Part shown: positions 3,237 through 30,672 of the stretch, one piece after another
How positions within the stretch are numbered: the stretch's first letter is position 1
Layout: each line of letters starts with the position of its first letter
Position numbers and translations under genes: made by a program
Source: Amphiura filiformis
Lineage: Eukaryota > Echinodermata > Ophiuroidea > Amphilepidida > Amphiuridae
Direction of reading: 5' to 3'
Assembly: GCF_039555335.1 (NCBI RefSeq)
Contig: NC_092629.1
Coordinates: forward strand, 5,262,932-5,326,931
Length of the DNA: 64,000 nucleotides
The notes under the pieces: generated by a model
Database searches by the model: none
What the model saw: only the letters and a program-made list of their open reading frames with translations
What the model was told of the DNA's origin: nothing

Positions 3237-3444
3237 TGGATGCCGAATGGGACTTCTTTTGCTTTACTTGCAATTACTTATTTTTCTTGGTTATTTATGC
3301 CTTTTTGTTTTATTATGTTTCTTACTTTCTTACTTTGTTGTTCTTGCTTTCTTTTTTATTTACAACATAAGTCATTTCTCTTTTTAGTATAAAAGGTGGC
3401 CCTAAAAGGCTGTTTGGTTTGTCTTTAGTTCTTCTGAAGTGAGT

Positions 3445-3727
3445 TTACTGTGCTGCTCTGCCCTCTACCTGGTTGCCTCCTTGGCGAATACAGGTTTCAG
3501 CCCTGGTCCTCATTACATCAATTGCGTTGCGTACCATCATTGTGCGCCGGATACTTGCGAATGCATTCAGTAATACGTTTGCGAAGATCTTGGATTTTGC
3601 CACAAAGGAAAAAAAAATCAAGTGGTGTGAGGTCTGGTGATCGTGCAGGCCACTCCACAGCGTGAGCCATCCCAACCAATCTGTTTGCTATACGTGGACA
3701 GAGTGAAAAACAGGTACTTTTATTCAA
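3445..3727 (-). pseudogene. Mariner-like transposase fragment
   Basis: The minus strand encodes WPARSPDLTPLDFFF followed by GKIQDLRKRI. This is the conserved block around the second catalytic aspartate of mariner DDE/D transposases (family pattern SPDLTPLDFFLWG). A second piece with RRTMMVRNAIDVMRTR is in another frame, so there is at least one frameshift. The N-terminal DNA-binding domain and first catalytic aspartate are missing, leaving roughly a quarter of the usual ~350 residues. Confidence 0.75.
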
Positions 3728-4405
3728 AAGGGCATATCTTCAAAAGTTGTGAGCCGATTGAAATAATTGTGTTGGTTTATTAAAGCTAACAATTAAAGGT
3801 TTCTTTACATACCAAAATACATTTAATCACCTTTTCAGAAATAGTAGAAAAAGAGGGCGCAATGAGGGGCCTCTTTTTTTGGGACACCCTGTACAAGGAA
3901 ACAGAAAGGACCACGCGCGTCCCACTTGTGCTCACATATCACCCTAAGCTGGCCAACACCCCTGGTCTCATTCGTAAACACATGCCAGCCCTCCACACTT
4001 CCGTCCGCCTTCAAAACGCCTTCCCAGATCCACCACATAATCTCAGAGATCTGTTGGTGAACGCTGCCCTGCCACCTTTGACCATGTTGACCAGTGTTTA
4101 CACCGACGCACCCATAGGCTTCACCAGATGCGCCTCAAAAAAGTGCTCTGTCTGTCCATTTATCAAAGAAAGCACTAAATTCTCAAGTTCTGCTACTGGG
4201 GAGGAATTTCCTATAACCTCTAATTTACACTGCAAATCTACATGGCTGGTCTACCTGATCACCTGTTCCAAATGTTAAAAACAGTATGTGGGTAGTAAAG
4301 CCACCACAACGCTGTATACGCGCTTCAACAACACGCGCTCTGACATCAAAAAATACAAAACTGATCGAGGCAAAACCCACCATTTCAACCTCCCAGACCA
4401 CACCA

Positions 4406-4520
4406 TTATATTACGCCCCCACTATTTATAGTGGTTGAGCACTCTCGACTACTTTTGGAGTAGAGGCTGTGCTGGTTGGCTGGGTTTGTCACGTTTTTGA
4501 CACCACAGAATGTGTATACA
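4406..4520. repeat. 115-bp dispersed repeat, copy 1
   Basis: It appears identical over all 115 bases to 9717-9831. It contains the palindrome CCACTATTTATAGTGG and, on the minus strand, a TATA-like CTATAAATAG. Minus-strand ends are TGTATACACA and TAATATAA. It follows the Penelope relic here. Family unknown: it could be a short non-autonomous element or the end of a longer one. Confidence 0.75.
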
Positions 4521-5700: not shown

Positions 5701-8700
5701 AACTAGAAGGCTATATATTTGTACACAAATACGGCTATACCCGCATGTACCCAAACTTACAGTCCTTATTTGCTGAGGACTTAAAATAAAGAAATTGTAA
5801 AAAGTCGCCCAATTGGGCAGAAAATGTGTAAAAGTGAAAGTCCAAGTCACAAGCTTTAATTGAATGTAGGTTGCACTGTCGTAGCACTTAAAATAAAGAA
5901 ATTGTAAAGAAGTCCCCTCACAGGGGAGTCGTCTCTCTTATTCTCTATAGGGTGCTGTTGTCAGTCTCTCTTACTCACAGTGAGGCTATGCAATATGATT
6001 CAGTGGAAACTATTCCAGAGGGAGTAAATTAAATGGAACAGCCATTTCAGAGGGAGTATGTAAATTATACGGAACAGCCTTTTGGGGCCATTTCAGAGGG
6101 AGTATGTAAATTAAATGGAACAGCGTATAATTCTCTAGTGTTATCAGTAGACTCAAGCTGGGCGCTGTAGCTGCTTTATTTACGGAGTAATGGCCGGCCC
6201 TATGTTTTAGCGTTAGGGGCCCTGGGGCCCATATTATGTAATATGTGGGGCTCATATGTACATATAACAATGTAATTCTCAGGTGCAATCTGTGTACAAA
6301 CTCTGAGCCCTAAAGCTGCTTTAATTGATGAGAAACGGCCGGCCCTTTGTTTTAACATGTGGGGCCCTGGGGCCCGTAATTTTTGACTTATGAGGCTCAT
6401 GTATATATGTTTAAGTATAATTCTCTAGTTCTATCAGTAGACTCAAGCTGGGCATTGTAGCTGCTTTATTTACCGAGTAACGGCCGGCCCTATTTTTTAG
6501 CGTTTGGGCCCTGGGGCCCATGTTGTATGACACATGGGGCTCATATATACATATAACAATATAATGCTTAAGACCTATTAGTGTACCAAATCTGAACCCT
6601 GTAGCTACTTTATTTGCTGAGAAACGGCCGGCCCTTTGTTTTAACATTTGGGCCTCTGGGGCCCTAGCCTTGAACATCTAGGGCCAAAATGGGCAAAAGG
6701 CACATCTACAATTTAGGGCTTATACATGTGCCACATATGAGCCCTAGTGCCATTATAGCTTTAGAGCTAGCCTTGTCAATCTGTGGCCCCTTATTTTTAA
6801 CATTTGGGGCCCTGGGGCCCATAATATATAACATATGGGGCTCAAGTATACTTGTTTTTATAGAGTACCCCTGGGGCTATCAGTGTTTTACCAACTCACG
6901 GCCCTGAGGCTGCTTCATCTGATGAGAAACGGCATGGTTTGTGTTTTTACATTTGGGCCCCTGGGGCCCGTGACCTTTGACCTCTGGGGCCAAGATGGGC
7001 AAAAGGCACATCTGCAGGGTAGGGCCCATAAGTGTACCACATATGGGCCCTGGGGTCTTTGTAGTTTTAGCGCTAGCCTTGTCAGAATGATGTGTTTGAT
7101 GGAGGAGAAGGAGGAGGAGGAGAAGACTAGAAGGCTATATATTTGTACACAAATACGGCTATACCCGCATGTTATCGGTGTACCCAAACTTACAGTCCTT
7201 ATTTGCTGAGGACTTAAAATAAAGAAATCGTATGTGTAAAAAGTGAAAGTCCAAGTCACAAGCTTTAATTGAATGTAGGTTGCACTGTCGTAGCACTTAA
7301 AATAAAGAAATTGTAAAAAGTCCCTCCCAGGGAGTCGCCTCTCTTACTCTCCATAGGTTGCTGTTGTCAGTCTCTCTTACTCACAGTGAGGCTATGCAAT
7401 ATGATTCAGGGGTAACTATTCCAGAGGGAGTATGTAAATTAAATGGAACAGCCATTTCAGAGGGAGTATGTAAATTAAACGGTACAGCCTTTTTTGGGCC
7501 ATTTCAGAGGGAGTATGTAAATTAAATGGAACAGCCAATGGGTATGTAATTTAACTGGAACAGCCTTAACGCTTCACGCTGGTATTTCCAATTATGATAT
7601 AATACGATCTGTCTGTTTAATCCTACGTGTGTGGGGTGGATGGGTGTGTGGGTGTTAGTAACAATATAATTCTCAGGTGCTATCTGTGTACAAATTCTGA
7701 GCCCGGAAGCTGCTTTCTTTGATGAGAAACGGCCCGCCCATTGTTTTAACATTTGGGGCCCTGGGGCCCATAATATTTGACTTATGAGGCCCATGTACAT
7801 AATTATGTTAAAGAATAATTTCCTAGTCCTATCAGTAGACTCAAGCTGGCCACTGTAGCTACTTTATTTACTGCGTAACGGCCGGCCCTATGTTTTAGCG
7901 TTTGGGGCCCTGGGGCCAATATTATGTGGTATATGGGGCTCATATGTACATATAACAATGCAGTTTTCAGGTGCAAACTGTGTACCAACTCTGAGCCATA
8001 AAGCTGCTTTATATGATGAGAAACGGCCGGCCCTTTGTTTTAACATTTGGGGCCCTGGGGTCCAATATATATGACTTATGGGGCTCATGTACATATGTTG
8101 AAGTATGATTCTCAAGTGCTATCAGTAGACTCAAGCTGGGCATTGTAGCTGCTTTATTTACTGAGTAACGGCCGGCCCTATGTTTTAGCGTTTGGGGCCC
8201 ATATTATATGACATATGGGGATTATATGTACATATGACAATATAATACTGAAGACCTATCTGTGTACCAAATCTGAACCATGTAGCTATTTTATTTGCTG
8301 AGAAACGGCCGGCCCTTTGTTTTAACGTTTGGGCCCCTGGGGCCCCCAGCCTTGTACATCTGGGGCCAAAATGGGCAAAAGGCACATCTACAACTTAGGG
8401 CCCATACATATGCCACATATGAGTCCTAGTGATCTTGTACTTTTAGAGCTAGGCTTGTCAATCTGTTGCACCATATTTTAACATTTGGGCCCCTGGGGCC
8501 CATAATATATAACATATGGGGCTCTTGTATATTCGTAAATATAGAGTACCCCTAGGGCTATCAGTGTACCAACTCAGGGCCCTGAGGCTGCTTCGTTTGA
8601 TGAGAAATGGCGTGCTTTGTATTTTCACATTTTGGCCCCTGGTGCCCGTGACCTTTGACCTCTGGGGCCAAGATGGGCAAAAGGCACCTCTACGGGGTAG

Positions 8701-8835
8701 GGCCCATAAGTGTACCACATATGGGCCCTGGGGTCCTTGTAGTTTTAGCGCTAGCCTTGACAGAATGATGTGTTTGATAGGAGAAGGAGGAGAAGGAGAT
8801 GGAGAAGGAGAAGGAGGAGAAGAAACCACAGGATG
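5701..8835. repeat. Higher-order GGCC-rich tandem repeat, two large units
   Basis: Two large direct units start at about 5701 and 7125 with the same ACTAGAAGGCTATATATTTG. Each contains ~145-150-bp monomers centred on GGGCCCTGGGGCCC or close variants, usually after a CGGCCGGCCC block. I count about 13 cores: near 6217, 6362, 6508, 6652, 6806, 6952, 7756, 7905, 8049, 8191 (truncated), 8330, 8488 and 8633. Two monomer types alternate, one with AGACTCAAGCTGGGC and one with TACAAACTCTGAGCC. Both units end in a GAGGAGAAGG purine tract. Long reading frames here on both strands come from the repeat and are not taken as genes. Confidence 0.85.
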
Positions 8836-9716: not shown

Positions 9717-9831
9717 TTATATTACGCCCCCACTATTTATAGTGGTTGAGCACTCTCGACTACTTTTGGAGTAGAGGCTGTGCTGGTTGGCTGGGTTTGT
9801 CACGTTTTTGACACCACAGAATGTGTATACA
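9717..9831. repeat. 115-bp dispersed repeat, copy 2
   Basis: Appears identical to 4406-4520, including the CCACTATTTATAGTGG palindrome. It abuts the point where the protease-side remnant of the LTR fossil stops, so it may have inserted there or mark a deletion joint. Confidence 0.75.
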
Positions 9832-9932: not shown

Positions 9933-10396
9933 ATTAATAGGTAAATTTTCACGGGAAAATTTTCTGGACACGTGATCAATGCGTATCAATGTGAGTGTAA
10001 CCTCGAGCCTGATCCCTGACCCCCGGCGGTGACCTCGCTATTCAAGTCTTAGTTATTTTGAATTGGAATAGTATTTTTGGCCGCAGTTTCGATAGAAATT
10101 CGTGCATTGCAAAATTATTGAAAATGGTGCGAACTTCATTTCTTCACAATACCATCAAAACGTAATTTCAAAAATATTTATCTACGGAAAAAAATATTTA
10201 TCTGCGGAAACTCTTTTTATAACATTATTAAGTTCCGACAAGTAACTGATTTTGCATCCAAGGAGAAATTCTTCCTATTCAAATACATTGGAAAACCACC
10301 CGCTGTGCTCGGGGTCACATTCCATAATGCTAATATGTCTGCGCCCATGGGTGTCACGTGTCCAGAAAATTTTCCCGTGAAAATTTTCCTATTAAT
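9933..10396. mobile_element. 464-bp MITE inside the LTR fossil
   Basis: The ends match in inverted orientation for about 43 bp (AATTTTCACGGGAAAATTTT core at both). They are bordered by ATTAAT, which contains TTAA, so the target duplication is probably TTAA or the whole ATTAAT. Protease-region sequence of the fossil lies on both sides. No coding capacity. Confidence 0.8.
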
Positions 10397-10790
10397 ACAG
10401 ACTGATAGAAGCGGGTCCAATGTGGACGTTCATTGATGCCCATCCTATAGCCTTTAGAGGACTTCCATCTGCTTGTTCTGCTGCATCTTTCATGGGAAAA
10501 AGAGCAGGCCTTGAGTCAACTGGAATACTGTTATACATCTGGACGGAAATAATAGTGTCTGTAGTCCCCGTGTCCACTAAGTATTCTACTGAGCAGTTGG
10601 CTATGTGTCCTTCTACAACTAGAGAGCGACCACGTTCTACATTTTCAGATGTTGGGTTTATTGACGGTTTCTGCTGATTTGTAGTCGCATTTCTGTTTAC
10701 TGTTGCTTTTCCGGAGTCCACACTTCCGATTTCGACCCTTCCGGGGCTCCTAGGTTGGGCCGAAAATCGTTTCCCGGACGATTCCATCCT
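10397..10790 (-). pseudogene. Retropepsin-like region of the LTR fossil
   Basis: The minus strand encodes a stretch with the aspartic-protease signature VDTGTTDTIIS, preceded by VVEGHIANCSVEYL. That is the usual surroundings of a Ty3/Gypsy retropepsin active site. Related sequence lies beyond the MITE at 9832-9932. Fossil; no function expected. Confidence 0.7.
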
Positions 10791-10799
10791 CCTCTCGAG

Positions 10800-11763
10800 C
10801 TACGGAATGTTTGAGGACAGCTTGCCTTATGATCCAATGCTCCACACCTGTAGCAACCTCTTCCTCTGCCTGGGTCTTGTCTACCACTTCCTCGTCGTCG
10901 CCTTCCGCTCCCTCTGCCGTAGTTAGGAGCTTGTGGGGCTTCTGCCGCTTGTCCTTTCTCAGTAGACTCCGACTGCTTACTCCGATTTTGACGCCTTCTC
11001 TGCCACGGTCTTCAACAACCCAATGACTTCCCTCAACTGGTCCTCTAGTACTCTGTCACTCTGCTCTACACTTTTCACAAACTTCGTAGGTTGTTTTTGC
11101 TTTTCGGTTGTCAAAAACGCTTCTGTCTCTAATGCAGTCTGTAATGCTGCTTCCATAGATGTAGGGCGGGAGAGGTGCACCGCTGATCATATCTCCCTAT
11201 CTCGCATGTTACCCATGAAGGGGTCTCGTGCTATCCGGTTCCTGGCTTCTTCTGCCATGCCGACGTAAGCATTATCTGTTAGTTTTCTAACAGCTTGTGC
11301 AAAATCTTGCAGACTTTCTTGTATGTTGTTGGCGACCACGAAGCTGTGCCAAGTATAGTTCTGCTTGGCCGGAGAACATGGTTTCTAAGCGCTTAACCAA
11401 CTCCTGATAAGTGATTGTTCTCCACTCATCCTGCTGTCGAATTACACCTCTGGCTCGACCACGAAGGCTCATAAATAATTGCTGTGCCTTTCGGCTGTCA
11501 GTCCATCCGTTCCAAGTGGCGACAGAGTCAAATTGGCTAAGGAATTCCTGTAGAGGCACATCTCCTTTGAATGCTTCAGGCGTAATTTGTTTCTGCTTAG
11601 GCCGCTCCATTCGGCTCCGGAATTTATCCATTCCTTTTATGCCATCTTCTAGCCTTAACCTCCATGGTCCGTCGCTGTGATGTGGCTCCTCTTCTTCAGA
11701 GTCGACATATTCTGTACCTGACATTTCTTCTTTGACTCTTCTGATGTTGCCTTTATGTCGTTC
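10800..11763 (-). pseudogene. Gag region of the LTR fossil, part nearer the protease
   Basis: The minus strand encodes a retrotransposon-gag-like domain. The clearest part is 11287-11724, with FKGDVPLQEFLSQFDSVATW and AQQLFMSLRGRARGVI. A less clear continuation runs toward the protease region. The other gag part lies on the far side of the 11.8-kb insertion. Fossil. Confidence 0.7.
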
Positions 11764-11876
11764 TACAGGGTGTCCCAGAATGATTTGTACCGTGTTTGCA
11801 AAAATAACTAAAAATAGAAGACGGGCAGTGTATCTATTTTTGATACCAGCATTATAATGTTGGACATGTCTCCTAC

Positions 11877-12300
11877 TTATTCTGTTAATTTCAGCACGCT
11901 ACCTTTATTTGTTTTGGCGTGCCATGCAATAATGTAAAATCGATGAAAAACGACTCGCATACCTTTGAAAAATGGCACGATACGATTAAATGAAGAACGT
12001 GGGATGTTTGGCACAGCATTTCGACGACAACTACTGTTGGGGTCACGCCTTAAAGCTTGCCGGACAGCTGCAATGTTCGCTCTAGTTCTTACAGTCTTAC
12101 GAGCACCTGAAGCTTCACTCTGCCGATTCCTGACAATTCCGTGCTCGTCAAACTTCTTTACGTTATTCACTATCGTCTAATGAATCTTCTTTGCGTCTCA
12201 ACATAGCTGCCGGTTTGCCAGTAAGTTTTTGAAAGAAATCCACGCTACTGTACAGTAAATTGTAGACTGGCCCCCAGTCTCGGTTCGGTTCCATCTCTGG
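11877..12300 (-). pseudogene. Mariner-like transposase N-terminal (HTH) relic
   Basis: The minus strand encodes KKFDEHGIVRN, then VRTRANIAAVRQALRRDPN and NIPRSSFNRIV, the paired helix-turn-helix layout of mariner transposases. Weaker coding similarity with interrupted frame (near FKNLLANRQLC) precedes it up to about 12300. The reading runs out toward the left TIR and the catalytic DDE/D domain is absent, so the copy is defective. It uses the same TIR family as the element ends at 11766 and 23570. Confidence 0.75.
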
Positions 12301-13190
12301 ATAATGTAACAATAAATAATTACGTAATGCCTTATGAAAAAAATGCCAACTCCCCCCTTATTTTCTTCAATGCCAAAACCCATTCCTCTTCATCCACAAA
12401 TCGACGCCACTAATTACACCCACCACAGTCAACCATGCAGCAATATAGAAATATACTCGTATTATAAGTGAACGCGAAAGTCCATTGAGCGCTGATTCCG
12501 AGACTGGTCCAATCTGTTAGAGATCTCACTTCCAAATATTCGTTCAACGAAGCACGGTGATTCCGATGTCAATTACGAAAGCCCCGCCCCAGTTTCAATT
12601 CAAATATGGTAGCACAAAGCTATGCCGCGGGATGTGACGCAAGATCGGATGGGACACTTGTCAACAACTGAGAGGTATTGAGCTCAAGTGGCACGCGTCT
12701 GATAGACCCATGGTACGCGCAATAATAAAAGGCAACCACTCGACTCGGACTTAGGCCTATTGTCCATATTGCGTACATTATCGAGTGCGGTTTGCAAATG
12801 TTTGCACATTATTTAGCTAGGGAAGCCTTTTCAAATATCCCGCGCTGCCAAGCTGCGTTGATTGGTCGGATACAATATCGTTGTTTAGTCGCTTACACAA
12901 ACGTTAATGTAGTGAAAACATGGACGTGGTATATAGAAAGATTGCGTGACTCCAAATCCGTAAAAGTGAACTTCCAGCAGTTTGTGGGAGCTGGAAGTCA
13001 AATTGCCTACAGACTGGGAGGGTCCGTGTATTGGGTTGATTTTTAATGCTATGTAATCTACATTACCAGTCGTTCTCCACGGACCCGAGGGAGGGTCTAA
13101 GTAAATTGAGGAGCCGTCTTTTCTGTACCACAACCAGTTTGATCTCTGCAAGCATTTCAAATGACATGGACCTCACACCACATTAACTAT
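12301..13190. other. No gene recognised
   Basis: Sequence between the transposase relic and the left foldback arm. I see no conserved product, RNA gene or clear repeat; the reading frames present look fortuitous. Confidence 0.45.
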
Positions 13191-16100
13191 CATAGGGCCT
13201 GCACTTTGGCTCGACATTTGAAAGGGGCGTGAATTCATTTTTGGATACGCCCCTATTATAATTAGGTAATACTCGACTCACACACATTCCCTATATTAAT
13301 ATGTATATACATGTACCACATGTAGTCAATCTGTCTGCTTTATCTGTATTGTGCCGTTCTTAAGCAAATACGGTAGTTAAACACGATTTCATCAAACATT
13401 ATAACAATAGCTCTTTTACAGTGTGCAATCATCCCGGGCAATAATCATGATAATAAAGGATGTGCGTGAAATTATTGATTGGCTCCATACAGAGGAATTG
13501 AACCGGTGTCCTTCACCGTAATCATGGCACAATGCAGTGCATTCAATCAAACGTTGTCGTCAACCTATTTGATCGTATTTGTGCATTTGTTATGTGTGTG
13601 AGACGAGCTGTCGCGGTAGATTGCAATAGCTTGTAATCATGCTTTTGTTCAATGAATTTGAGTACTCCGCCATATTTACGGTATGATACGTCATAATCTA
13701 GGTGATTATTTGCATGTCTTGAATACGCTGGCGAGGTTGTGTAATAATCGGATTAATGCTATAACAGTAGGTGAATACAAGTTTTGAATATATCGCGTTG
13801 CAAAGCCCCATTCAGTGATCCCAGCGAAAGTGAAAAAAAATCAAATTGTTACTTTTATAAAAAAATTAAAGAAAAAAATTGGCACAAAACCCAAGAAAAC
13901 GGCAGTATTGACGAAGTTTAAGCCCCATTCAAATACATGTAGCTAATTTATATACAGTATACTGTCAGTATATAAATTACAGATTCACGTAAATGCATTA
14001 TTTTTGTCTTAAATAGGCCTACACGGCTTAGGGCTGAACCACTAGCAGAAGACACCAAGTTGATGTTTTATGACCTTTGACATTCTTTTGTGGCGAGTGA
14101 CATGGTCAGTTCAATTCACGCCGAGTGTCCTTGACAGGTTTAACTCTGCTTCGGTGGTCATCAGAGGATGTTTAAAGACATTCCCATGACCCAATGGGGT
14201 TTCTGCAATTCTGACCTTGGTATGTCTGGTTTTTGTACACATGTGGCAAGTTGACCATACTTTGCATTGGGATTGTGTGCAAATATCTGATGTTTTCATC
14301 CTATTATTTAACATTGAAAACATCGAGACTTAGGAATAAAATTAATGCAGTGGGACAATATGAATGTTTCCTGTAAGAAAATCAAATATCAGTCCTAAGT
14401 CTCAACTATTAGCTCGTTGGCTGCAGTTTTAAAATGACCATTTTGTGTGTGTGTCAATGGGGACTTTGCCTCTAAAATTAGGTTATATTGGTCAAATTTC
14501 CCAATCATAGTGCATTGTAGGAATGCCTTTAAGCCTCCTCTGGGTGGTCATGAAAGAATTCAAAAGATAACCTCTGCCCCAACAATCCCAAGCAATTGTC
14601 TGAAACTGCTCTTCGGATGATGTATCATAAGAACTCAAATGATGATAGTCATATAATGACCAAAAGATTATTACCGACTATATCATTGAAGACTGAGTTC
14701 TGCAGTCTTGTACAAAATCTGAATTTTGATGATTTTTACGATCGTCCGGATGAAAAAAAAAAAAACTGAATGGGCCGTTAGTTCCCTCCTCTCCTTACAC
14801 TGGCAATATGGATCAAAGAAAAATAAAGAAAAAATTAAGAAAACAAGAAAAAAAAAAACAAAGAAAAGAAACAATAAAAGAAAAACAAATATGAAAAGTT
14901 CGAACAATATTTGGTTTATAAAATTAATGTGACCGTGATGAGGCTCGAACTCACCACCTTCCGATTTAAAGTTCGAAGCGCTAGCGTACCAAATTCTGAT
15001 GCCTTACCAAGTGAGCTGTGCTCCTGAGATACGAAATAAAAATAAAATAATACACTGTATACCTGCTTGTGTCGGTAATTGATTTGCTCAAATTCCATAA
15101 TGGTACAGTGCAACAGAGCAAAAATGCCCAAAATTTAAAAGCTATATAATTTATGACCACTATACACTACACATAAAAATACTAATACAAGGGAATTTCA
15201 ACGTAAGAATCCAAACAATTAAGAGGCATTATCTGTTATTTTGGAGAATTTTTGTTAAATGTTTGCCACGGTCAAAAAATGGATTTCCTTTAAACTTTCA
15301 TATTTGATGGACCTTGACCTGAAACAAACACACATGAAATAAATTTGGGAAAAATATCCCCGTTGCCATGGTAACAGCCAAATTTTCATTTTAGGCCTAT
15401 TTTCACAATTTTTGCATTTTTCAGCAGTCAATTTGTCAAGTTTTGAAGCCAGTGTTACTAATATACACAATATATATATACTGTTTTCTTTGTAAGGTAT
15501 GAATAGGTCGAACCTTAGATGCCGCATTGAAAGTATAAAAATAATCACCAGATGTCAGGGTGGGTTATACCATTTATTTGAAATAGGGGTGTTTTTCAAT
15601 TTTTCAAAGTATGAAAATATACCAACTTTGTATAGCTCATAAACCATATGGTAGTGCTCCGATTTCAACATCGACCACAGCATGTTGAGATGATACATTG
15701 GTCTTATGAAAAAGTTACATTTGAGCTTGGGGAAAACACATCTGTATATACAGTGTTGCCAGACATTTTCCTATTTTTCGAAATTCAACACAAATCTCAC
15801 CTTAAGTTAAATGAGGTGAAAATGAAACATCATCCTTTCAAGGAACATTTATTAGAAAGAGAGTTTTATTCATATCAAATTTGATCAGTTATAATGGTCA
15901 GTGTTGTTCTAAACCACATGGGTGTTGCCATAATTGGGGTTTTATTGTGATTTGTGGATATTTTCAACTTTTTAAAAGTTATAAAAATACCAAAATGCAT
16001 TTCTATAATAAAGAAAGAAACATCGACCTCGTCATGTTGAGATGATACATTGGCCTTATGAAAAAGTTATTTTGATCGGGGGTAAAACATCAGTTTATAC

Positions 16101-16525
16101 AGTGTTGCCAGATATTTTCCTATTTTTCAAAATTCAACACAAGTCTCGCCGTAAGTTAAAAGATATGAAAATGAAACTTCACCTTCATATGGAACATATC
16201 TTTTAGAAAGAAAGTTAATTTCATATTCAATTTGATCATCTGGGATGGTCAGTGTTATTCTAAGCCATATGGGTGTTGCCATAGGTGGCGTTTAATATGA
16301 CAATATTTAGATATTTCCAGCTTTTTACAAGTCGTAAAAATAGTACACACCTTTAAAATTATTGTGGAATGAACGTTTGGAATGAACGCAATATTAAGGT
16401 TAAAAATTAACCTAAGAATACTTAGTATGTGAATTTAAATTTTAAATTTGAGTTCGGAAAATATTTCCTTCTATACAGTATTGCCAGATATTATCACATA
16501 ATTCAAAATTCAACATATGTTGAGC
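13191..16525. repeat. Left arm of giant foldback
   Basis: Reads as the diverged reverse complement of 19280-23163. Anchors include CATAGGGCCTGCACTTTGGC (13191, outer edge), a B-box-like segment near 13500, the block at 13920-14160 with GGCGAGTGACATGGTC, and TCAGGGTGGGTTATACC near 15556. The inner edge lies near CAGTATTGCCAG at 16474. The arm is interrupted by a tRNA-like insertion (14931-15029). It ends in tandem ~350-bp units. Confidence 0.85.
14931..15029 (-). repeat. tRNA-like sequence (SINE head or tRNA pseudogene)
   Basis: On the minus strand, AGCTCACTTGGTAAGGC resembles a tRNA D-arm/A box and GAGTTCGAGCCTC a T-arm/B box, about 60 bp apart. About 22 extra bases (around GGTACGCTAGCGCTTCG) sit where the anticodon arm should be, so it does not fold as a normal tRNA without an intron. 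The right foldback arm lacks it, so it was inserted after the arms formed or was lost from the other arm. Confidence 0.55.
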
Positions 16526-17265
16526 TTTTTCAGCTTTTTTAAGCTTTTTCAGCTATTTTTCAGTCTTAAAAATGCCAAAATACAATGGCATACATTCCTA
16601 AAATAAAGATGTGAAAATGAAACATCGACCTCATCATGCTGAGATGATACATCGGTCTTATGAAAAATTTACATTTGAGCTTGGGGAAAAACATCTGTTT
16701 ATACAGTGTTGCCAGATATTTTCCTTTTTTTCAAAATTCAGCACTAGTTTCACCTTAGGTTGAAAATGAAAGTTTATTAGAAAGAAATTTACTTTCATAT
16801 TAAATTTGATCAGTTGTATAAATGGTCAGTGTTGTTCCAAACCACATGGGTGTTGCCATAATTAGGGTTGAATAGCGAGATGTGGTTATTTTGAACTTTT
16901 TACAAGTTTTAAAAATACCAAAATACCATGGTATGCATTCCTTAAAAAATATGTGGAAGTGAAACATCAACTTCACCATGTTGAAATGATACATATTTGG
17001 TCTTATGAAACATTTACACTTAAGCTTGGGGAAAACATATGTTTATACAGTGTTGCCAGATATTTTCCTATTTTTTCGAAATTTAACACAAGTCTCACCT
17101 AAAGTTAAATGATGCGAAAATGAAACTTCACCTTCACAAGGAAAGTTTATTAAAATGAAATTTACTTTCATATTAAATTTGATCAGTTGTATAAATGGTC
17201 AGTGTTGTTCCAATCCACATGGGTGTTGCCATAATTAGGGTTTAATAGTGAGATGTCGATATTTT
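15640..17265. repeat. Tandem ~350-bp units in left foldback arm and loop
   Basis: About five diverged units in direct orientation, each with CAGTGTTGCCAGATATTTTC or a close form (near 15748, 16096, 16474, 16700, 17045). Each is followed by a block with CACATGGGTGTTGCCATAAT. The same units occur inverted at 19310-20460. Tandem subrepeats inside inverted arms are the hallmark of FB-type foldback elements. Confidence 0.8.
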
Positions 17266-17273
17266 TATAAGTC

Positions 17274-17869
17274 ATAAGGGTTCAAATAGCGACGTTTTCA
17301 CATATTTTTGTGGACCTGAGAGCACATCAGACATATATTGAAATTTGCGATATAATACAAATTTTATGGCAAATGATTAAAAATTGATATTTTTGAAATT
17401 TAACAGGTCTCAAAAGTAAATTGTATAAATCTAGTGATATGTACTTAAAGTGTATGTAGCTGGAATGAAAAGCCGTCCATATGAAAATTTGACCTTTCAT
17501 ATTGAAGATATAGATTTTTCACCAAAACACCTAAGGTCTTTTGGGGAAAAATCTATATCTTCACTATGAAACTGTCAAATTTTTCAATTAACATTAATTA
17601 ATTGATTATTGGTCGGCTTTTCATCCCAGCTACATACACTTTAAGTACACATCATTAGATTTATTAAATTAACTGTAATATGTCAAAAAATAAAAAAATT
17701 CAATATGCATAATTTACCCTAAAATTTTTATTGTATCGCGAATTAAAAAAAATCAAAATTATTTTATATCAGAAGGACATTCCTCGTATTCAAAATGCAA
17801 TTTGGTATGTCTGATGTGCTCTCAGGTCCGACAAAAATACTGTGCAAAGGTGGGTGACCAACCCCTTAA
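17274..17869. mobile_element. ~600-bp palindromic MITE, TTAA-type
   Basis: The inverted ends share GGACCTGAGAGCACATCAGA plus further flanking similarity. Internally TACTTAAAGTGTATGTAGCT pairs with its complement near 17620, so nearly the whole element folds back. The right border is TTAA (17866) and the left ATAA (17274), consistent with a piggyBac-like TTAA target. It lies in the foldback loop. A relic of one end is at 21750-21945. Confidence 0.75.
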
Positions 17870-19279
17870 AATACAACACAGAAAACATCAAACATGTATA
17901 CTTTAAAATATACATAAAAGCCATAATGTTTTTACCAATATACACATACTAGCTAGGCTAAAATAAATTAAAATAACATAAGATTGTTACATTGCAAAAA
18001 GATGCATATAAGAGTAAGATAATGTTTAAATTACGCCTACCCCATATTATTAAAGCACACATCCCAACTATACTTGCAAAAAAGATATGGGGAAGAAATG
18101 GGCAAAAAACTATATAGATCCAGCAAATGTCTCGAAAGATATGAGAATACAGCTCAACTGATCATACTTTTCCTACATTCGACCTTGGATGATTTTTGAG
18201 TTGACACAGTCATGAAAATAACTATAGATACTTGACAAGACCATTAGTAGCCCAGTTCTGAACCTTTTCATTGATCATTCATAACAATAGGTATCTGATG
18301 GATCAGTGAAGATAAGAAGGATTATAATATATCCGTAACCTTGATATTATAGTACATCTCGAGGAAAAAGTGCAATGGACATGTTTTCATTTTATGTTTC
18401 AAATATCCAGCATGAAAATTGAGTATTTAACCCAAAATGGAAAATGGAACAATTTATTGGAAATCTGTTTTAACAGATATTTTTGACATCTTTTTCTGCA
18501 CTGTATTATACCTAAATTAAGAAATTTGATAAATATTCAAAGGAAATATAGGTCATCCAAAAAATGTTGATTTTTACACATTTTGGGGCAAAAAAGGAAA
18601 AATAAGCAAAAATATCAAAATCTGTTTTAACAACTTCATTCATCAAGTCATAACAAACGGCCTACATGCTTAATTTCTAATAAAATATTGAAATATTGCT
18701 AATTCTCTGTCATTCAAGCATCCCCTGCTCATTGATGACATGAATTTGTATGAGCTTGTAAAAAGGAAGCAACTAAAATTAAGCTTTCAAGACTGAAGGA
18801 GATTTATATGAACACTTTTGCAGATACTTGCAGGGTTAAAGCAAAATAAAAAATCACCAAATGTTGATAAAAGTTGTCTGAGGAAATATCCGTTTCAAGT
18901 AGAAAAAGAGGTCTACTGGGCACAGTATACCTATGACATGACGCCGGAGGGGGTTCTCCCTGGTTAAAGGTATACGGGGATGTGCCACGGTTTTGGGGGT
19001 ACCTTAGCAATTTTGGTATGTCGATTGGTGGGTTTGCAGTGGAGACAATACACCAAATTGGGTGCATTAAGGCAAAAGTGCCCATAAAAGCGCCAAATTA
19101 GGACAAATTTGTGTGCTTTTTGGGTGTTTTTTGTGAAAAATTGGAATACTATAGTTGTAACTTTAATAAGGTGTCATTTTAAAATTGAAAATGTATCCAC
19201 ATTTCACTATTAACTCCATTTATAGTGGCATCATCTATGTGGTTTATTCATGGCAGCGATTTAAACAATATAAATCCTA
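17870..19279. other. Foldback loop, no gene recognised
   Basis: AT-rich single-copy-looking sequence between the two arms. No coding region or known element end was recognised. Confidence 0.5.
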
Positions 19280-22200
19280 AAGTGAGACATACATTGAATT
19301 TTGAATATATGTGATAATAACTGGCAATACTGTATAGAAGGAAATATTTTCCGAACTCAAATTTAAATTCACATACTAAGTGTTCTTAGGGTAATTTTTA
19401 ACCTTAATATTGCGTTCATTCCACAATAATTTTAAGGATGTGTACTATTTTTAAGACTTGTAAAAAGCTGGAAATATCTAAATTGTCATATTAAATGCCA
19501 GCTATGGCAACACCCATATGGCTTAGAAATAACACTGACCATCCCAGATGATCAAATTGAATATGAAATTAACTTTCTTTCTAAAAAGATATGTTCCGTA
19601 TGAAGGTGAAGTTTCATTTTCATATCTTTTAACTTAGGGCGAGACTTGTGTTGAATTTTGAAAAAATAGGAAAATATCTGGCAACACTGTATAAACTGAT
19701 GTTTTACCCCCCACCCCCAAATCAAAATAACTTTTTCATAAGGCCAATGTATTATCTCAACATGACGAGGTCGATGTTTCTTTCTTTATTATAGAAATGC
19801 AAGTTGGTATTTTTATGACTTGTAAAAAGTTGAAAATATCCACACCTCACAATTAAACCCCAATTATGGCAACACCCATGTGGTTTATCTGGCAACACTG
19901 TATAAACTGATGTCTTACCCCGCCCCCAGATCAAAATAACTTTTCATAAGGCCAATATATCATCTCAACATGACGAGGTCGATGTTTCTTTCTTTATTAT
20001 AGAAATGCATTTTGGTATTTTTATGGCTTGTAAAAAGTTGAAAATATCCACAAATCACAATTAAACCCCAATTATGGCAACACCCATGTGGTTTAGAACA
20101 ACATTGACCATTATAACTGATCAAATTTGATATGAATAAAAACTCTCTTTCTAATAAATGTTCCTTGAAAGGATGATGTTTCATTTTCACATCATTTAAC
20201 TTAAGGTGAGATTTGTGTTGAATTTCGAAAAATAGGAAAATGTCTGGCAACACTGTATATACAGATGTGTTTTCCGAAAGCTCAAATGTATACTTTTTCA
20301 TAAGACCAATGTATCTTCTCAACATGCTGTGGTCGATGTTGAAATCGGAACACTACCATATGGTTTATGAGCTATACAAAGTTGGTATATTTTCATACTT
20401 TGAAAAAATTGAAAAACACCCTATTTCAAATAAATGGTATAACCCACCCTGACATCTGGTGATTAATTTTATACTTTCATTGCGGCATCTAAGGTTTGAC
20501 CTATTCATACCTTATAAAGAAAAAATCATATTTATAATGTGTATATTAGTAACACTGGCTTCAAAACTTGACAATTTGACTGCTGAAAATGCAAAATTGT
20601 GAAAATAGGCCTAAAATTGAAATTTGCCTGTTACCATGGCAACGGGGATATTTTTCCGAAATTTATCCCATGTGTGTTAGTTTGAGGTCAAGGTCCATCA
20701 AATATGAAAGTATAAAGAAAATCTATTTTTGACCGTGGCAATTATATTCTCAAAAATAACAGATAGTTCCTCTTAAGTACCAACATGCACAGCTTTGTCC
20801 TTATATCACATTTGGGTTTTTAACAAAATGTTATCAAACCTCTACTGTGATTGGCAGCTGCACAAGGCATCTCTTTGATAGCTGATCATGGCCATCCATT
20901 CAGCAAGTGGCTACTAACTGACCTTGACAGGCTTGAATGAGCACTGTCATCTGCTACAAAACCATCACACTCTAGGACCTGGTCACTCCATAATGCTACA
21001 GCTACAGGGAGCACAGTACTTTGACAATGGAGTGAAAGACTATTATTATTGATTAGGCGCGGATTTAAAAAGTACAGCTCCTATGCGTGTATAGCAAAAA
21101 ATTGGAATAGAATGTTTGGAATCATGTAACTAAAGTACTAAATGCATTCTGCAAAATGCGCTCTGACCAATTTATAAAGCATTTCATTAGCTTTAATTTG
21201 ACATATTGTTTGACATATTTGGAATTATGGTAAATCATTAAATAAAATATTTATTAATTAATCAATTATGTCAATTAATTAAAAATTTAATGCAAATATG
21301 CATATTTTCTCTGACAGAATTGTAGGATTTGACAAGAGCCATCTTTCTTGTAAGTTTGATTCTTATAACATACCGGTATCGTATTGTGTCCCGTTATAGT
21401 TGCAGAAAAAAAATACGCGTGCAGGACACACATACGCACACACACCCCCAGAGGATCGTACCGTTTTACAATCGTATAACATTCATTGGCGCTAGTAGTA
21501 GTAAATTTCAATTTTCTTTGTTTTACCTCACTTGTTCTGCTCAAAATTAAAATGGGACATATCTAGCTGACAGTAAAAGCTTACATTTTATGGAAATTAT
21601 GTTTAACTATTTGCTTAAACAGCACAAAACAGATAAAGCAGACAAATTTACTATACATAGGCCTATACATGTATGGTATCATGCCAGGGACTGTTTAAGA
21701 ATATAACATTAGATTTATGATATTTACTTCGAGGACTGTTATTTATCAAAAATGTGAAAAATATCAAATTTTAATAATTTGTCATAAAATTTGTATTATA
21801 TCGTGAATTTCAAACAATGAAATTTATTTGATATCAGAAAGACATTCTCCGTATTCAGAATGCAATTCGATATGTCTGATGTGCTCTCATGTCCCACAAA
21901 AAATACTATCGAAACGCTCAAAACGCTCATTCCAGATCCCTTAATTTGGTTAATTTTCTTTTCTTGTTTTCTTTCTTTATTTTTCTTTGATTTATATTGC
22001 CAGGGTAAGGAGAGGGAACTAAAGGCCCATTCAGTGATTTTGTGATTTTTTTTCATCCCGACGATCGTAAAAATCATCAAAATTTTGGACATTATTATGA
22101 CTATCATTTGAGGACTGAGTTCTTATGATCCGACGAGCAGTTTCAGACAATTGCTTGGGATTATTGGGGCAGAGGTTATCTTTTGAATTCTTTCATGACC

Positions 22201-23163
22201 ACTGAAGCATAGTCAAACCTGTCAAGGACACTCGGCGTGAATTGAAAGACCATGTCACTCGCCACAAAAGAATGTCAAAGGTCATAAAACACCACTTTTG
22301 TGTCTTCTGCTATCTAAAGGCCTATGGCTGATTTTGTACCTTTCGTCATTGTCATAGATGTGCTAACATAGCTTGCTAGTGCAGTGGTTCAGCCGAAAAC
22401 CGTGTGTCTAAGACAAAAAATAATGCATTTACGTGAGTCTGTAATTTATATACCGGTACTGACAGTATATAAATTAGCTACATTTATTTGAATGGGGCTT
22501 CAACTTCGTCAATACTGTCGTTTTCCTGTTTTGTTTTTTTGCCATTTATTTGTCAAAAAAAAATTTATAAACGTAACAATTTGATTTTTTTTTCACTTTC
22601 GCTGGGATCACTGAATGGGACTTTATAGCGCGGATTATTCAAAACTTGTTTTTACCTACTGCTATATAGTATTAATCCGATTATTACATAACTTTGCCAG
22701 AGTATTCAAGACATAGGTTATGTAGGGATAAACTGTACATGGGTATAGAAGCCCTGCATGCTTTTATCGATTGGCTCCAAACAAAGGATTTGAACCGGTG
22801 TCCTTCACCGTAATCACGGCGCAGTAGCCTACAGTCCATTCAATCAAATGTTGTCAGTGTGCGAGACGAACGATGTATAAATCTGGAGGTCACATCATCA
22901 CTTATCATGCTTATTGTAAAAAGTTTGTCCAATGCATATACTGTGTGTATTGTTCCCGGGTATTGTCAATACAGTCAAGCAAACAGGTATTATATTTTGA
23001 AAAGGCCGCTATAGTATATTCACAGGGGTGTCTTGAATGGCCAATCATATGGGACATAATCAAGTTGCAGTGACTGCTTCCTTTGTTACCACATGTCAGT
23101 CATCTTGTGATTATTGGACCATGTAAACCTGCAAAAAACGAGCCAAAGTGCAGGCCCTATGAT
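19280..23163. repeat. Right arm of giant foldback
   Basis: Diverged reverse complement of 13191-16525. It carries about four inverted ~350-bp units (TGGCAACACTGTATA near 19322, 19676, 19887 and 20242; the first as TGGCAATACTGTATA). The outer edge is CAGGCCCTATG near 23151. About 1.1 kb (20780-21945) has no counterpart in the left arm and includes the end of a TTAA-type MITE like that at 17274. Confidence 0.85.
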
Positions 23164-23572
23164 TTAAAACTACCGCCAAAGAGAGAATGGGATTAGGCCA
23201 CAAATCCTTAATTCCATATGATGATTGCTTCGTAACGTCATAAATAATAGATAGATATCGGCTATTTAGTGGAAATATGAACAGGGCACAACTAAAATAC
23301 CTGCATAACTTTTTCCAAATAACTTTGTGCTGAACGGTTAGTAATGTTACAGATTTTCAAAATAGGTTGCGTTGTCAAAACTTAGAATTCACCATTTTTA
23401 CGCAATCTTCTATAACTTCTACTAGAAACGTCCAATTTTTAAAATCTAAAAAATCTGAGAAAGCTAAATATATGTAGAACTAAAAATGCAAGACAATATG
23501 ACCATTCAACATGTCCTTCATACCTAAACAATTCCATCTTTCCCGGTACAGATCATTCTGGGACACCCTGTA
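23164..23572. other. Right flank of the foldback inside the 11.8-kb element
   Basis: AT-rich, no product recognised. It ends in the right TIR (23543-23570) of the TA-flanked element. Confidence 0.5.
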
Positions 23573-24592
23573 TGCTGACATTACGCGGGTTCATATTACC
23601 TCCATCCTTCCTTCGGACCTCTGAGCTGACTACATGATGTGATGTCGGAGCCCGTTTCTTATATTTGTTATGACTGTCGGATGGCACCTGACCCGTTAGC
23701 ATTTGACGGAGCTCACTACTTTCTTGTTTCAAATTCTCCCACTTCATTTGTTCTACCTCCGCGTCCTGATGGTCTCCCGACTTGGGATCTTTGTCCATAA
23801 TTAACACTTGCCTGTGCATATGGAACCGCTGGAGTTTCACAACTTTGCGTCAGCTGCTCTTCTTTCATAAATTTGTTGATATGCCTCGGCTCCCGGATAA
23901 ACACATCTGGGTCGGATGCCGTTGCTCTTCCGTACCCCGGTGGCTTTTCAAATTCATGAACAATTCTTGATTCCATCATAATGCTCACATCTTCCATCGG
24001 ACTACACGACGCATCATTTTGTGTCCTTTGCATGCCTTTTGTAACTCGATTTGTCCAACTGTCCTTGGTTGCGTTTGTCAGGAGAATCGTTTGCATCTCC
24101 TGAAATTGGCGTTGCTCCTGCTCTTCTCCTGGAGTTGATGCTCTTGCATACTCCACGTGATCAGCCTCATCTGAGCCACGAGCTGCCACATGCCTCTCCC
24201 CTCCGGAGACATTGACCGTCTCCCCGTACTGCTGCTGGGGATTTCTTTCAGCAGAAGACACTGTTTCTGAGCAGAACTCTGGCGGTGGCTCAATCCTTGG
24301 TTGGCTTAACTCACTTGCTTTTTGTTTCTCAGTTAATTTTGTCCGTAAGCGTTTAATTTCATCAATGAATATCTGCCTCTCGTCTTCACCATTCACTCTC
24401 AGTAAGTTGATCTCCTCTTGTAAATCCAAACTCCTTTTCGCTGCTTCCTTTGCTTCTAACTCCAACTGCTTATCACGCTCCCGGAGTCATTCGATTTCCT
24501 CTTCTTGCACCTGGCTGTGGAAATCCTCCACCCAATCTTGATCATCGTCGAAGTTGGACGCCATTCTCCCTGCTCGTCCTGCAATCCCTGAG
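23573..24592 (-). pseudogene. Gag N-terminal region of the LTR fossil
   Basis: The minus strand encodes a polar region with coiled-coil character (AAKRSLDLQEEINLLR, then IDEIKRLRTKLTEKQK). Downstream is a low-complexity linker with RSQVGRPSGRGGR. It sits between the primer-binding-site-like stretch and the 11.8-kb insertion, where gag is expected. Fossil. Confidence 0.6.
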
Positions 24593-25968: not shown

Positions 25969-27424
25969 ATTACTGTACAATATATGAAATGATATTAATA
26001 CATTTTTAATAATACCAAAAAAGTCACATAATTATATATATTTACTCTATGGTCTGCATGCACAAAACATGACGTGGTCTAACCATGGAGGCTAAAATTA
26101 GGGAGGGTTCCTTTTGCTATTTTCTTTTCCTCCTTTTAGTCCTATAGTTAAACTGCAGACATCTATAAATATTAGGCTACATGATCTGCAATAACATAGA
26201 ATAAGGTACATGCAAATACCAAAAAAATTCCTTCTCCATAGGACTAATCTCCATATTTAGACCATGCCTAAAGTTAGACCTGTTCTAACTTATTTTATGC
26301 ATACTGACATATAACTCCATGATAACTTTTGATATTTTCAGATCTCTGATTACATAATTACACCTATAAACAATAATGCAAGATATAATATGTACAGAAC
26401 CAATGGGGACATTGTACAACAGTGATGTATTTATACAACTTGAGTTATATTTCAACACAGTGGTGACACCCATGGGGTGGTGGGGATATTTTCTCCCTAA
26501 AGTTGGTTTTCCCTCCTCCCCCATCAAAGAACATGCCACTATTTGGAGCAAAAAATTCAGAATTTTAGACAAATTTTCAACATTTTTCACAATGGAACTT
26601 GAGTAGAGGAGCATGGCATACTGTTAAAGCCAAATAAACAAAGCAACAAGAAAAAATGCTGCATACATTACATTACACAGAAAATGTATATTTGGTTATA
26701 CAATGTATAAAGGTTATAAAACATTTAAGAACATCTTCAAATGTTGTAGTAAAACGTTTACATCTATGGGCTGTGCAATAATTATGAGCACCAGTACAGA
26801 GGTGAAAGGGTAAAATTTCCTAACATGTATAGGCAAATAGTTATTTTAATGACTGTCCATGTAGAACTGTCATTCATAATATTGTAAACTCAGACCCGTC
26901 TGATAATGGCCGAAGGGCTTTCTACCAGTTGTGTTATTCTGTCGGTTAGGATTGCTGATTATTGCTCAATATATCACACTTTAGGGACCGTTTACTACTT
27001 ATGCTAGAGGAAGTACGAGTTTTAACAGGGAATCCAAATTTGCTGGGGAGTGTTTGAGCAGACGCAAGGGGGAAGTTTTCAAACTCCCATCCCTCAGCAT
27101 TAATATTGAACAGTTCCTTAATACTCCCCAGAACTGGATTGAGCCTTTGCATTGGAGTATATAGGGAAATTAAATTAAATGAATTAAAATATTAGGTTCC
27201 ATTTTTGTAACAAAATCCGAGATTTAATAAAACAATGTCCAGTTGATTAATTCATGCAATCAAATACTACTCAAACTTGTGTATGCTGTTTGTACATACA
27301 TGACATACACATTGTTCAAAGCACATGAACGTTGCGACCGCAGTCTGACCAACACACCCCTACACCCACTGGTGACACAAGCACTGGAATTACACAGTTA
27401 GCTTTGTGTTCCAGAGTAGAACAA
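25969..27424. other. No gene recognised
   Basis: AT-rich intergenic sequence. Short open frames near 26285-26614 and 26946-27152 lack recognisable motifs. The last ~120 bases are the left flank of the 88-bp array. Confidence 0.45.
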
Positions 27425-28744
27425 CACTTTCTTGCTCTGATTGATGACAAGCCCTGTTCATGAGCAATATGCCAAGCTTTGATGAGCACCACTGTGTTGA
27501 TCGCTTCATCAGCACTTTCTTGCTCTGATTGATGACAAGCCCTGTTCAAGAGCAATATGCCAAGCTTTGACGAGCACCACTGTGTTGATCGCTTCATCAG
27601 CACTTTCTTGCTCTGATTGATGACAAGCCCTGTTCATGAGCAATATGCCAAGCTTTGATGAGCACCACTGTGTTGATCGCTTCATCAGCACTTTCTTGCT
27701 CTGATTGATGACAAGCCCTGTTCAAGAGCAATATGCCAAGCTTTGATGAGCACCACTGTGTTGATCGCTTCATCAGCACTTTCTTGCTCTGATTGATGAC
27801 AAGCCCTGTTCAAGAGCAATGTGCCAAGCTTTGATGAGCACCACTGTGTTGATCGCTTCATCAGCACTTTCTTGCTCTGATTGATGACAAGCCCTGTTCA
27901 AGAGCAATATGCCAAGCTTTGATGAGCACCACTGTGTTGATCGCTTCATCAGCACTTTCTTGCTCTGATTGATGACAAGCCCTGTTCAAGAGCAATGTGC
28001 CAAGCTTTGATGAGCACCACTGTGTTGATCGCTTCATCAGCACTTTCTTGCTCTGATTGATGACAAGCCCTGTTCAAGAGCAATATGCCAAGCTTTGATG
28101 AGCACCACTGTGTTGATCGCTTCATCAGCACTTTCTTGCTCTGATTGATGACAAGCCCTGTTCAAGAGCAATGTGCCAAGCTTTGATGAGCACCACTGTG
28201 TTGATCGCTTCATCAACACTTTCTTGCTCTGATTGATGACAAGCCCTGTTCAAGAGCAATGTGCCAAGCTTTGATGAGCACCACTGTGTTGATCGCTTCA
28301 TCAGCACTTTCTTGCTCTGATTGATGACAAGCCCTGTTCAAGAGCAATGTGCCAAGCTTTGATGAGCACCACTGTGTTGATCGCTTCATCAGCACTTTCT
28401 TGCTCTGATTGATGACAAGCCCTGTTCAAGAGCAATGTGCCAAGCTTTGATGAGCACCACTGTGTTGATCGCTTCATCAGCACTTTCTTGCTCTGATTGA
28501 TGACAAGCCCTGTTCAAGAGCAATGTGCCAAGCTTTGATGAGCACCACTGTGTTGATCGCCTCATCAGCACTTTCTTGCTCTGATTGATGACAAGCCCTG
28601 TTCAAGAGCAATGTGCCAAGCTTTGATGAGCACCACTGTGTTGATCGCTTCATCAGCACTTTCTTGCTCTGATTGATGACAAGCCCTGTTCAAGAGCAAT
28701 GTGCCAAGCTTTGATGAGCACCACTGTGTTGATCGCCTCATCAG
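27425..28744. repeat. 88-bp tandem array, 15 units
   Basis: Exactly 15 units of 88 bp run from CACTTTCTTGCTCTGATTGA at 27425, with almost no length change and very few substitutions. Variants alternate every second unit. CATGAG/CAAGAG alternates in units 1-4. AATATGCC/AATGTGCC alternates in units 4-9. CGCCTCATC occurs only at the ends of units 13 and 15. This points to past amplification of 176-bp dimers. There are no unique spacers, so it is not a CRISPR array. As 88 is not a multiple of three, each frame gives the same ~60-residue reading frame, which I treat as an artefact. Confidence 0.97.
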
Positions 28745-28870
28745 CACGTATTCAGCCAATCAGATTAATGGGCTCTTGTTATGATTGTCAGACCGTTGAA
28801 TTAGCTAATCAGAACCCCATATCTGAGTTTACACTGTGTACACTCTCATTATGTAAACAAATGCAGTTTT
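28745..28870. repeat. Right flank of the 88-bp array, dispersed elsewhere
   Basis: The reverse complement of about 28770-28860 recurs at about 43083-43170 in ZFYVE1 intron 4. Shared words include GGGGTTCTGATT and GTCTGACAATCATAACAA. The array therefore expanded inside a dispersed element. Confidence 0.7.
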
Positions 28871-29741: not shown

Positions 29742-30370
29742 TATCATTGTAGTGATTTAGTCTGCAAAAATAAGGAATGCCTCTGTTCGAGAGTGTCTCA
29801 CACCAAGCAATTCCAAAAAGTTGACAGCCCTGCGAACAGCTCAAGTTATGACAACACTCCCTCCATCAGAATGTAATTAATTTTCTGAGATCAACATTGG
29901 ATTTATTTAAAAAATTGTAATGCAATTTATGTACTGAATGGCAAGCAATAAATGTTAAAGATATCCATAATCTGAAATAAAAACAGGTATAATTGAGCTA
30001 TACTACAAAACAAAATCAAATAGACAAGTGGATATTCATACGTAGTGGTAGATAGATAAAGTAAACATAAAGTAGGCAATGTAGATTTAAACTGCTATTC
30101 AACACAAATATATTGAGAAATTTACCTCAATACTTTGGTATGTACAATACACATCCTCATCAAGAGGGCTCCAATGATGAATTGATACAGTTGTATGTCC
30201 TTCTACCTTTGATGTCCTTTCTACTGATCAGATTAGGGCATTATATAATGAAGGGAGCTCATGGTTTCGATCACGGTTGAGCGCGGGAGTGCGTTTTCTG
30301 ATTTCAATGGCCATATATATAATATCCTAATACAATTAGATTTGAGTGACCCTAGGCACACAATTCGCTG
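29742..30370. other. No gene recognised
   Basis: AT-rich intergenic DNA with no recognised feature. Confidence 0.45.
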
Positions 30371-30672
30371 TCAAAGTGACGTAACAATCAAATTAACTAC
30401 CATAGCAATAAGGTCAAACAATTTTTGAATGTAGCATGCTGCACTACAAACAGGATGCACTCATCACCAGTGTATGTCTGCAATCATAGATTGAATACAA
30501 TACCGCTCTTTTCAAAGATACTAATCTTACAAGTGCGAGTGATCAGCATGATATGGTTCAATGCAGAGGTACCGCATGAACATACCAGTGAAGTGTGATA
30601 TATTCAAAAATTGTTTTACCCTATTGCTATGGTAGTTGATCCGATTATTACATCACTTCTATGGCGATTTGA
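30371..30672. repeat. Inverted-repeat element related to the foldback arms
   Basis: ACTACCATAGCAATAAGGTC near 30399 pairs with GACC/TACCCTATTGCTATGGTAGT near 30620, and the match extends about 60 bp. The right side (GATCCGATTATTACAT) resembles part of the giant foldback arm near 22675. Probably an old MITE of a family present in the foldback. Confidence 0.6.

Follow-up and report, generated by a model that had tools for sequence, protein, structure and literature searches.

Composites with mariner ends have been described before, both as miniature inverted-repeat transposable elements (MITEs) joined with a short interspersed nuclear element (SINE) and as mariners that carry genes. MER6 is a non-autonomous mariner MITE of 865 bp with a SINE, which later spread as a composite (PMC6887750), and Fanzor-carrying mariners enclose foreign cargo between TA-flanked mariner ends (PMC3627910). 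The locus described here is a block of 11,805 bp (positions 11766–23570) between mariner-type terminal inverted repeats, with TA on both sides, in a 64-kb window, meaning the whole 64,000-nucleotide stretch of Amphiura filiformis contig NC_092629.1 that was analysed. Like MER6, the block has short Tc1/mariner ends with TA flanks and has been entered by other DNA, but MER6 holds one resident in 865 bp, whereas the block holds several in 11.8 kb (PMC6887750). It shares mariner-type ends and TA flanks with the Fanzor-carrying mariners, whose cargo is protein genes rather than the stacked repeats found here (PMC3627910). What sets the block apart is its size and the depth of its nesting, with layers formed by the outer ends, a pair of outer repeat arms, an inner foldback, a palindromic repeat and possibly one more element at a perfect 25-bp inverted pair. 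A first-pass annotation of this DNA had allowed two readings, a composite that moved as one unit and a mariner copy colonized where it sat, and the block is indeed a composite, with a stack of nested elements within a single mariner-type end pair. Our preferred explanation, to which we assign a probability of about 0.45, is that a non-autonomous container element with Tc1/mariner-type ends was filled elsewhere and then moved in its loaded state. Among the papers listed in literature searches, judged by titles and the beginnings of abstracts, there was no mariner-ended foldback of this kind, and the matches listed for the end sequence CAGGGTGTCCC were unrelated by title.

The terminal pair, CAGGGTGTCCCAGAATGATYTGTACCG at 11766 and 23570, is 27 bp long (not 28 bp, as first annotated) and agrees at 26 of 27 positions; the pair itself and its TA target sites were correctly recognized. 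Joining the flanks at one TA yields a 251-aa retroelement-like open frame that runs across the site on the minus strand, which ties both ends to one insertion, and the short terminal inverted repeats and TA duplication with a restorable empty site are those of a Tc1/mariner element. The left part of this frame matches PNMA weakly and below the cut-off (E = 0.021) and is followed by zinc-knuckle-like and protease-like stretches read by eye, and on these grounds the interrupted sequence is called a retroelement gag-like gene. Apart from the 27-bp ends, the outermost parts of the block (1.4 kb at the left, 0.4 kb at the right) have no sequence in common. A search for a third end inside the block, using a 19-bp core with up to four mismatches, returned the two outer ends and nothing else. 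With no inner end found in this search, a structure made of two complete mariner copies and mobilized through the outer ends of the pair was rejected.

A control for this type of end is provided by a second CAGGGTGTCCC element at 2168–3891, which is 1.7 kb long, has ~200-bp terminal repeats and TA flanks, and lies inside a reverse-transcriptase-type frame. Removing it and joining its flanks restores a 264-aa frame, which indicates that CAGGGTGTCCC ends mark genuine TA insertions here. The restored frame is related (BLASTP E = 2e-19) to the reverse-transcriptase open reading frame (ORF) at 31931–33049, which matches RVT_1 and which we take to belong to a Penelope-like element. Since its ends diverge from those of the block after ~12–15 bp, the 2168–3891 element represents a sister family and not the block's own. 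Its WPxxSPDLxP-like remnant has no Pfam match, and its best PDB match, Sleeping Beauty, is not significant (E = 0.53). A small element related to it is present at 42116–42260.

Inverted homology inside the block is real, with a best minus-strand score of 1329 bits compared to a best of 41.0 in 20 dinucleotide shuffles. The two inverted arms reported at first pass therefore exist, but they are broken, do not make up one foldback and begin 1.9 kb (left) and 0.9 kb (right) inside the mariner-type ends, so that the block as a whole lacks the long arms reaching the element ends that characterize foldbacks. Reading inward from the ends, the 25-bp pair is followed by the outer arms, which unmatched sequence separates from the inner arms on both sides. 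The 25-bp pair, at 1.4 and 0.4 kb from the mariner ends, is unrelated to both arms and may bound a further nested TA element. Kimura two-parameter distances are 0.09–0.16 for the outer pair and 0.03–0.09 for the inner pair (15219–16520 and 19287–20776), which carries the ~350-bp units. The breaks at 14857–15218 and 20777–21953 have no mutual match, and most of 14170–14543 is unpartnered. Substitutions between the arms number 84 in 661 positions for the outer arms, 36 in 436 for the inner flank and 33 in 1036 for the units (in the unit count, left 15910–16114 is counted once against each of two tandem copies on the right; the middle outer segment was cut at 14820/21985, and a 60-bp gap was scored as one event). 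The tiers differ from each other (units and outer arms, P = 1e-13; units and inner flank, P = 7e-5; inner flank and outer arms, P = 0.02), and this unequal divergence means that the arms are not one structure of one age, or that conversion between them has homogenized their inner part. Two shorter inverted pairs do not follow the order of the arms, at 13323–13390/21593–21653 (81% identity) and 17305–17449/21694–21902. The segment 21499–21596 also matches 46193–46286, which points to further dispersed repeats in the right half of the block.

The inner arms look like a separate nested element, hereafter F, that would be a TTAA-type foldback and a transposon in its own right. F ends in TTAAGAGGMAYTATCTG, and the homology of its arms starts at TTAA on both sides and disappears outside it. 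As TTAA begins at ~0.9% of block positions, chance coincidence at both borders is unlikely; TTAA is its own reverse complement and could instead represent the final 4 bp of the arms. It is this boundary of the subrepeat part that makes F look like a separate element, and from TTAA inward a flanking domain and tandem subrepeats form arms that reach the element ends. The structure had first been taken for one giant foldback with mariner ends, and that idea is not supported, given the two-tiered arms and the TTAA boundary. Foldback arms found elsewhere with their own target duplications and without the mariner ends had been named as the sign of two separate elements, and nearly this arrangement is observed, albeit in place inside the block rather than at another locus. 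The units are genuine as well, and their reported number of five versus four holds only when partial units are included. Across the arms, the units of two mirror pairs agree at 97%, compared to 77–88% within one arm, and the array is thus older than the last common sequence of the arms. Between the arms, the unit part (15743–16322 and 19466–20263) is 96–99% identical in 100-column windows and the flank (15244–15643) 90–94%, a difference that suggests recent conversion between the inner arms. The loop of F holds a palindromic repeat, M17, whose own terminal repeats differ at 2 of 44 positions.

Several described foldback-like or TTAA-flanked elements resemble F in part. Tetris of Drosophila virilis is alike in layout, its arms being built from a flanking domain plus ~220-bp tandem units that are AT-rich and have no coding capacity, but it has target duplications of 8–10 bp, for which its authors suggest Mutator, whereas F has TTAA and ~350-bp units (PMC4079207). 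A scan for an 8–10 bp target duplication of F (15151–15300 × 20700–20859) yielded TTAA alone. Galileo likewise has long arms, which grow through ~210-bp internal tandem repeats and the inverted recruitment of inner sequence and are 95.2% identical in its longest copy, but it belongs to the Drosophila P-superfamily, and no tie of F or of the outer arms to such a transposase was found (PMC3573991). With a target duplication unlike that of Tetris, F is filed as neither. F has the TTAA target duplication of Kolobok and piggyBac elements. Two Kolobok elements listed from Xenopus are 9,163 and 12,216 bp long, but the ends listed for them (AGCGATTCTGACATGG) are different, and the ORFs of F that were scanned revealed no transposase (PMC6004289).

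The outer arms contain two repeat families that are also present at 30.4–30.7 and 34.9–35.2 kb, and the end motif of one of them, repeat Y, recurs at 34864–34878 and 35199–35213. A scan for an outer-arm target duplication (13601–13800 × 22600–22799, requiring at least 12 of 20 end bases and a duplication of at least 4 bp) found none at the boundary, the sole pair being ATTA ~40 bp inside the arms. The same type of scan found no duplication for the 30361–30671 repeat, for M17 or for either arm copy of Y, and its hits for the third copy of Y were weak. We therefore use the term MITE for these three repeats on the basis of inverted ends or palindromy. Exact 8-bp duplications with inverted ends were also considered as element borders and rejected: 12 pairs occur (0–3 per block-shuffle in 20 shuffles), of which 11 are palindromic words as expected within inverted arms. 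Just outside both outer arms stand two copies of another dispersed repeat, X, which share one orientation and are accordingly separate insertions, not mirror copies. No tRNA genes or Rfam families were found in the window, and a SINE-like label for X would come from our own reading of a B-box-like stretch.

Movement as a unit is favoured, rather than demonstrated, by the youth of the interrupted retroelement in comparison with several of the residents. The clock used here sets lesions in the interrupted frames against resident divergence and is calibrated on the substitution and indel rates of the arms. The interrupted frames carry three to five lesions in 2,287 bp, or one stop if stops alone are counted; among the lesions, one frame change might reflect a programmed gag-pro shift, and another a natural second ORF. 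This corresponds to a change of ~0.7–2.0% in the retroelement copy (95% upper limits of 1.8–4.3% across calibrations), and since the insertion sits within that copy, it is younger than this change. Resident ages, taken as half the pairwise distance, are ~5–6% for X, ~11% for M17 and its partial sister, 6.4% for the outer arms, 4.1% for the inner flank and 1.6% for the units. At the age of the outer arms, 15.6–27.4 lesions are expected, with a probability of five or fewer of 2e-7 to 0.002, and at the age of the X copies 13.5–23.8, with a probability of 4e-6 to 0.008. With the indel rate of each segment itself, a lesion-free 251-aa frame has P = 0.0009, 0.036 and 0.0099 at the outer-arm, inner-flank and unit ages. 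The small number of lesions thus implies that the insertion is younger than several residents, and on this comparison of sequences the block was probably already loaded on arrival, provided that the divergence of X and of the outer arms arose in place.

The order of events and the travel of the loaded block are what we infer from these observations. The start would be an old mariner-type copy at an earlier locus, without a working transposase, which then filled up through the entry of other elements and through an inverted duplication. First would have come the pair of outer repeat arms, next the TTAA-type foldback whose arms contain tandem subrepeats, and then the palindromic repeat in the foldback loop, along with the two copies of X. 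Finally, a transposase supplied in trans would have cut at the ends and placed the 11.8 kb at a TA in the gag-like gene; mobilization in trans is proposed because the 27-bp ends stayed nearly intact.

Several points weigh against this container explanation. The first is the lack of a transposase: of 75 listed ORFs of at least 50 aa, 10 were scanned with Pfam along with five further pieces (three from one ORF), and 3 of the 10 had matches, all below curated cut-offs and none to a transposase, while the five pieces had zero. No DDE/D transposase is encoded or traceable among the ORFs scanned, and the three of these that lie in F gave a single match, to DUF443 below the cut-off (E = 0.062). To our eye, a 99-aa minus-strand ORF in the left subterminal part (11877–12176) looks like a transposase helix-turn-helix region, but no database match supports this; its best PDB match is a release factor (E = 0.2). 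The claim is for this reason limited to mariner-type ends, and a non-autonomous copy need not encode a transposase. Length is the second point, as Mos1 transposition was reported at 1.2e-4 with a 2.5-kb insert, 3.6e-8 with 7 kb and <1e-9 with 12.5 kb (PMC2642840), a curve by which 11.8 kb looks too long for a mariner. Third, no second copy of the block was seen in the window or in the viral and prokaryotic contig collections. Exact patterns for the outer end, the F end and the Y end had 0 matches each in viral contigs, one outer-arm pattern had 0 in genome contigs, and the 99-aa ORF and a 158-aa gag-like piece gave two and six pattern stretches in viral contigs, with no relative confirmed; because the collections are viral and prokaryotic, absence there says little. 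The dating has weak points of its own, in that lesions were counted by eye with no homologue aligned and AT-rich repeats of the block itself serve as the calibration. At the inner-flank age, 10.0–17.7 lesions are expected and five or fewer have a probability of 0.0004 to 0.065 (0.063 with the segment's own indel rate), and at the unit age the probability of 0.31–0.80 does not discriminate, in disagreement with the 0.0055 obtained when the units' own indel rate is used. The own ends of M17 give P = 0.06–0.49, by which M17 could be young. Lastly, the divergence of the residents, including that of F and its arms, could predate their insertion, in which case the dating would lose its basis.

This last point leads to the foremost alternative, namely that a short mariner-type element in the gag-like gene was colonized in place by elements that had diverged beforehand, an explanation that is possible but that we hold with some doubt. 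It draws on the TTAA flanks that F has for itself, on the presence of the outer-arm repeats and X elsewhere in the window, on the very poor transposition of large Mos1 constructs (PMC2642840), and on the units and the own ends of M17, which need not predate the insertion. It has to assume prior divergence for several residents at once, and the little-decayed frames, with far fewer lesions than expected at the X and outer-arm ages, speak against it. A further alternative is that a short mariner was excised and the break filled from the interior of an older, colonized copy, with no full-length transposition. We consider this unlikely and keep it because it fits both the dating and the Mos1 length limit, accounting for an old interior at a young site with no need for 11.8 kb to transpose, and 'abortive gap repair' occurs as a term in the mariner literature; it would require more than 10 kb to be copied from a template with the same ends, and it has left no direct trace. 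It is also improbable that the 11.8-kb mariner-ended composite transposed whole, far beyond the measured working length, with the help of a near-symmetric inverted interior that might pair its arms and so bring the ends together. A single true foldback with mariner ends, whose arms once reached those ends, is very improbable, since the similar distances of the 25-bp pair from the arms (501 and 425 bp) and the near-equal centres of that pair (18176) and the outer arms (18214; mariner ends, 17668) are set against two-tiered arms, outer 1.4 and 0.4 kb without inverted similarity beyond 27 bp, and an inner part bounded by its own TTAA.

If the block moved as a unit in the way that the container explanation proposes, natural mariner ends would carry far more DNA than the laboratory length curve implies, and nests of dead elements could be re-mobilized together, spreading foldbacks, dispersed repeats and satellite seeds. 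Should arm pairing prove true, internal foldbacks would be mobility aids for oversized mariners. If the block was instead colonized in place, it would be a clear but ordinary case of nesting that mimics a giant foldback. The clock, which compares the intactness of an interrupted frame with resident divergence, could be applied genome-wide. The features of the locus are collected in Table 1.

Table 1. Coordinates of the block, its nested elements and the interrupted retroelement within the 64-kb window
Feature	Positions	Strand	Remarks
Left mariner-type terminal inverted repeat	11766..11792	+	TA before (11764-11765); 26/27 identical to right end
Right mariner-type terminal inverted repeat	23544..23570	-	TA after (23571-23572)
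Left subterminal part	11793..13188	.	No other match in window
Perfect 25-bp inverted repeat, left copy	13189..13213	+	TA-flanked if end is GGGCCTGCACTTTGGCTCG
Perfect 25-bp inverted repeat, right copy	23139..23163	-	Perfect mirror of left copy
Dispersed repeat X, left copy	13472..13693	+	Third copy at 50255-50468
Dispersed repeat X, right copy	22744..22856	+	Same orientation as left copy, not mirrored
Outer arm, left	13714..14856	+	Start resembles terminal repeats of 30361-30671 MITE, then repeat Y (end motif GCCCATTCAGTGATC)
Outer arm, right	21954..22714	-	Mirror of left outer arm
Inner foldback element F	15223..20772	.	5,550 bp; TTAA both sides (15219-15222, 20773-20776)
F, flanking domain of left arm	15223..15666	+	444 bp; mirror 20341-20772, 36/436 substitutions
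F, left array	15667..17265	+	Four full ~350-bp units and one partial
F, right array	19181..20340	-	Two full units, one 208-bp internally deleted unit, two remnants
M17 palindromic repeat, loop of F	17292..17851	.	Partial second copy at 21694-21907
Interrupted retroelement, gag/protease-like fragments left of insertion	10395..11765	-	Joined frame, sequence motifs
Interrupted retroelement, gag-like fragments right of insertion	23571..24486	-	Joined frame

Outside the block, the window contains further repeats. A 115-bp direct repeat (4406–4520 and 9717–9831) is 100% identical over copies that lie 5.3 kb apart with differing flanks, and it represents either short terminal repeats that belong to one element or a small, very young element present twice. 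An irregular repeat region (5702–8799) has direct units that are 65–89% related. A tandem array at 27422–28747 has an 88-bp period and ~15 copies, with shifted self-matches that are 95.7–99.3% identical, and a direct duplication of ~1.95 kb (56867–58789 and 59456–61415) has 96% identity and a start-to-start distance of 2.6 kb.

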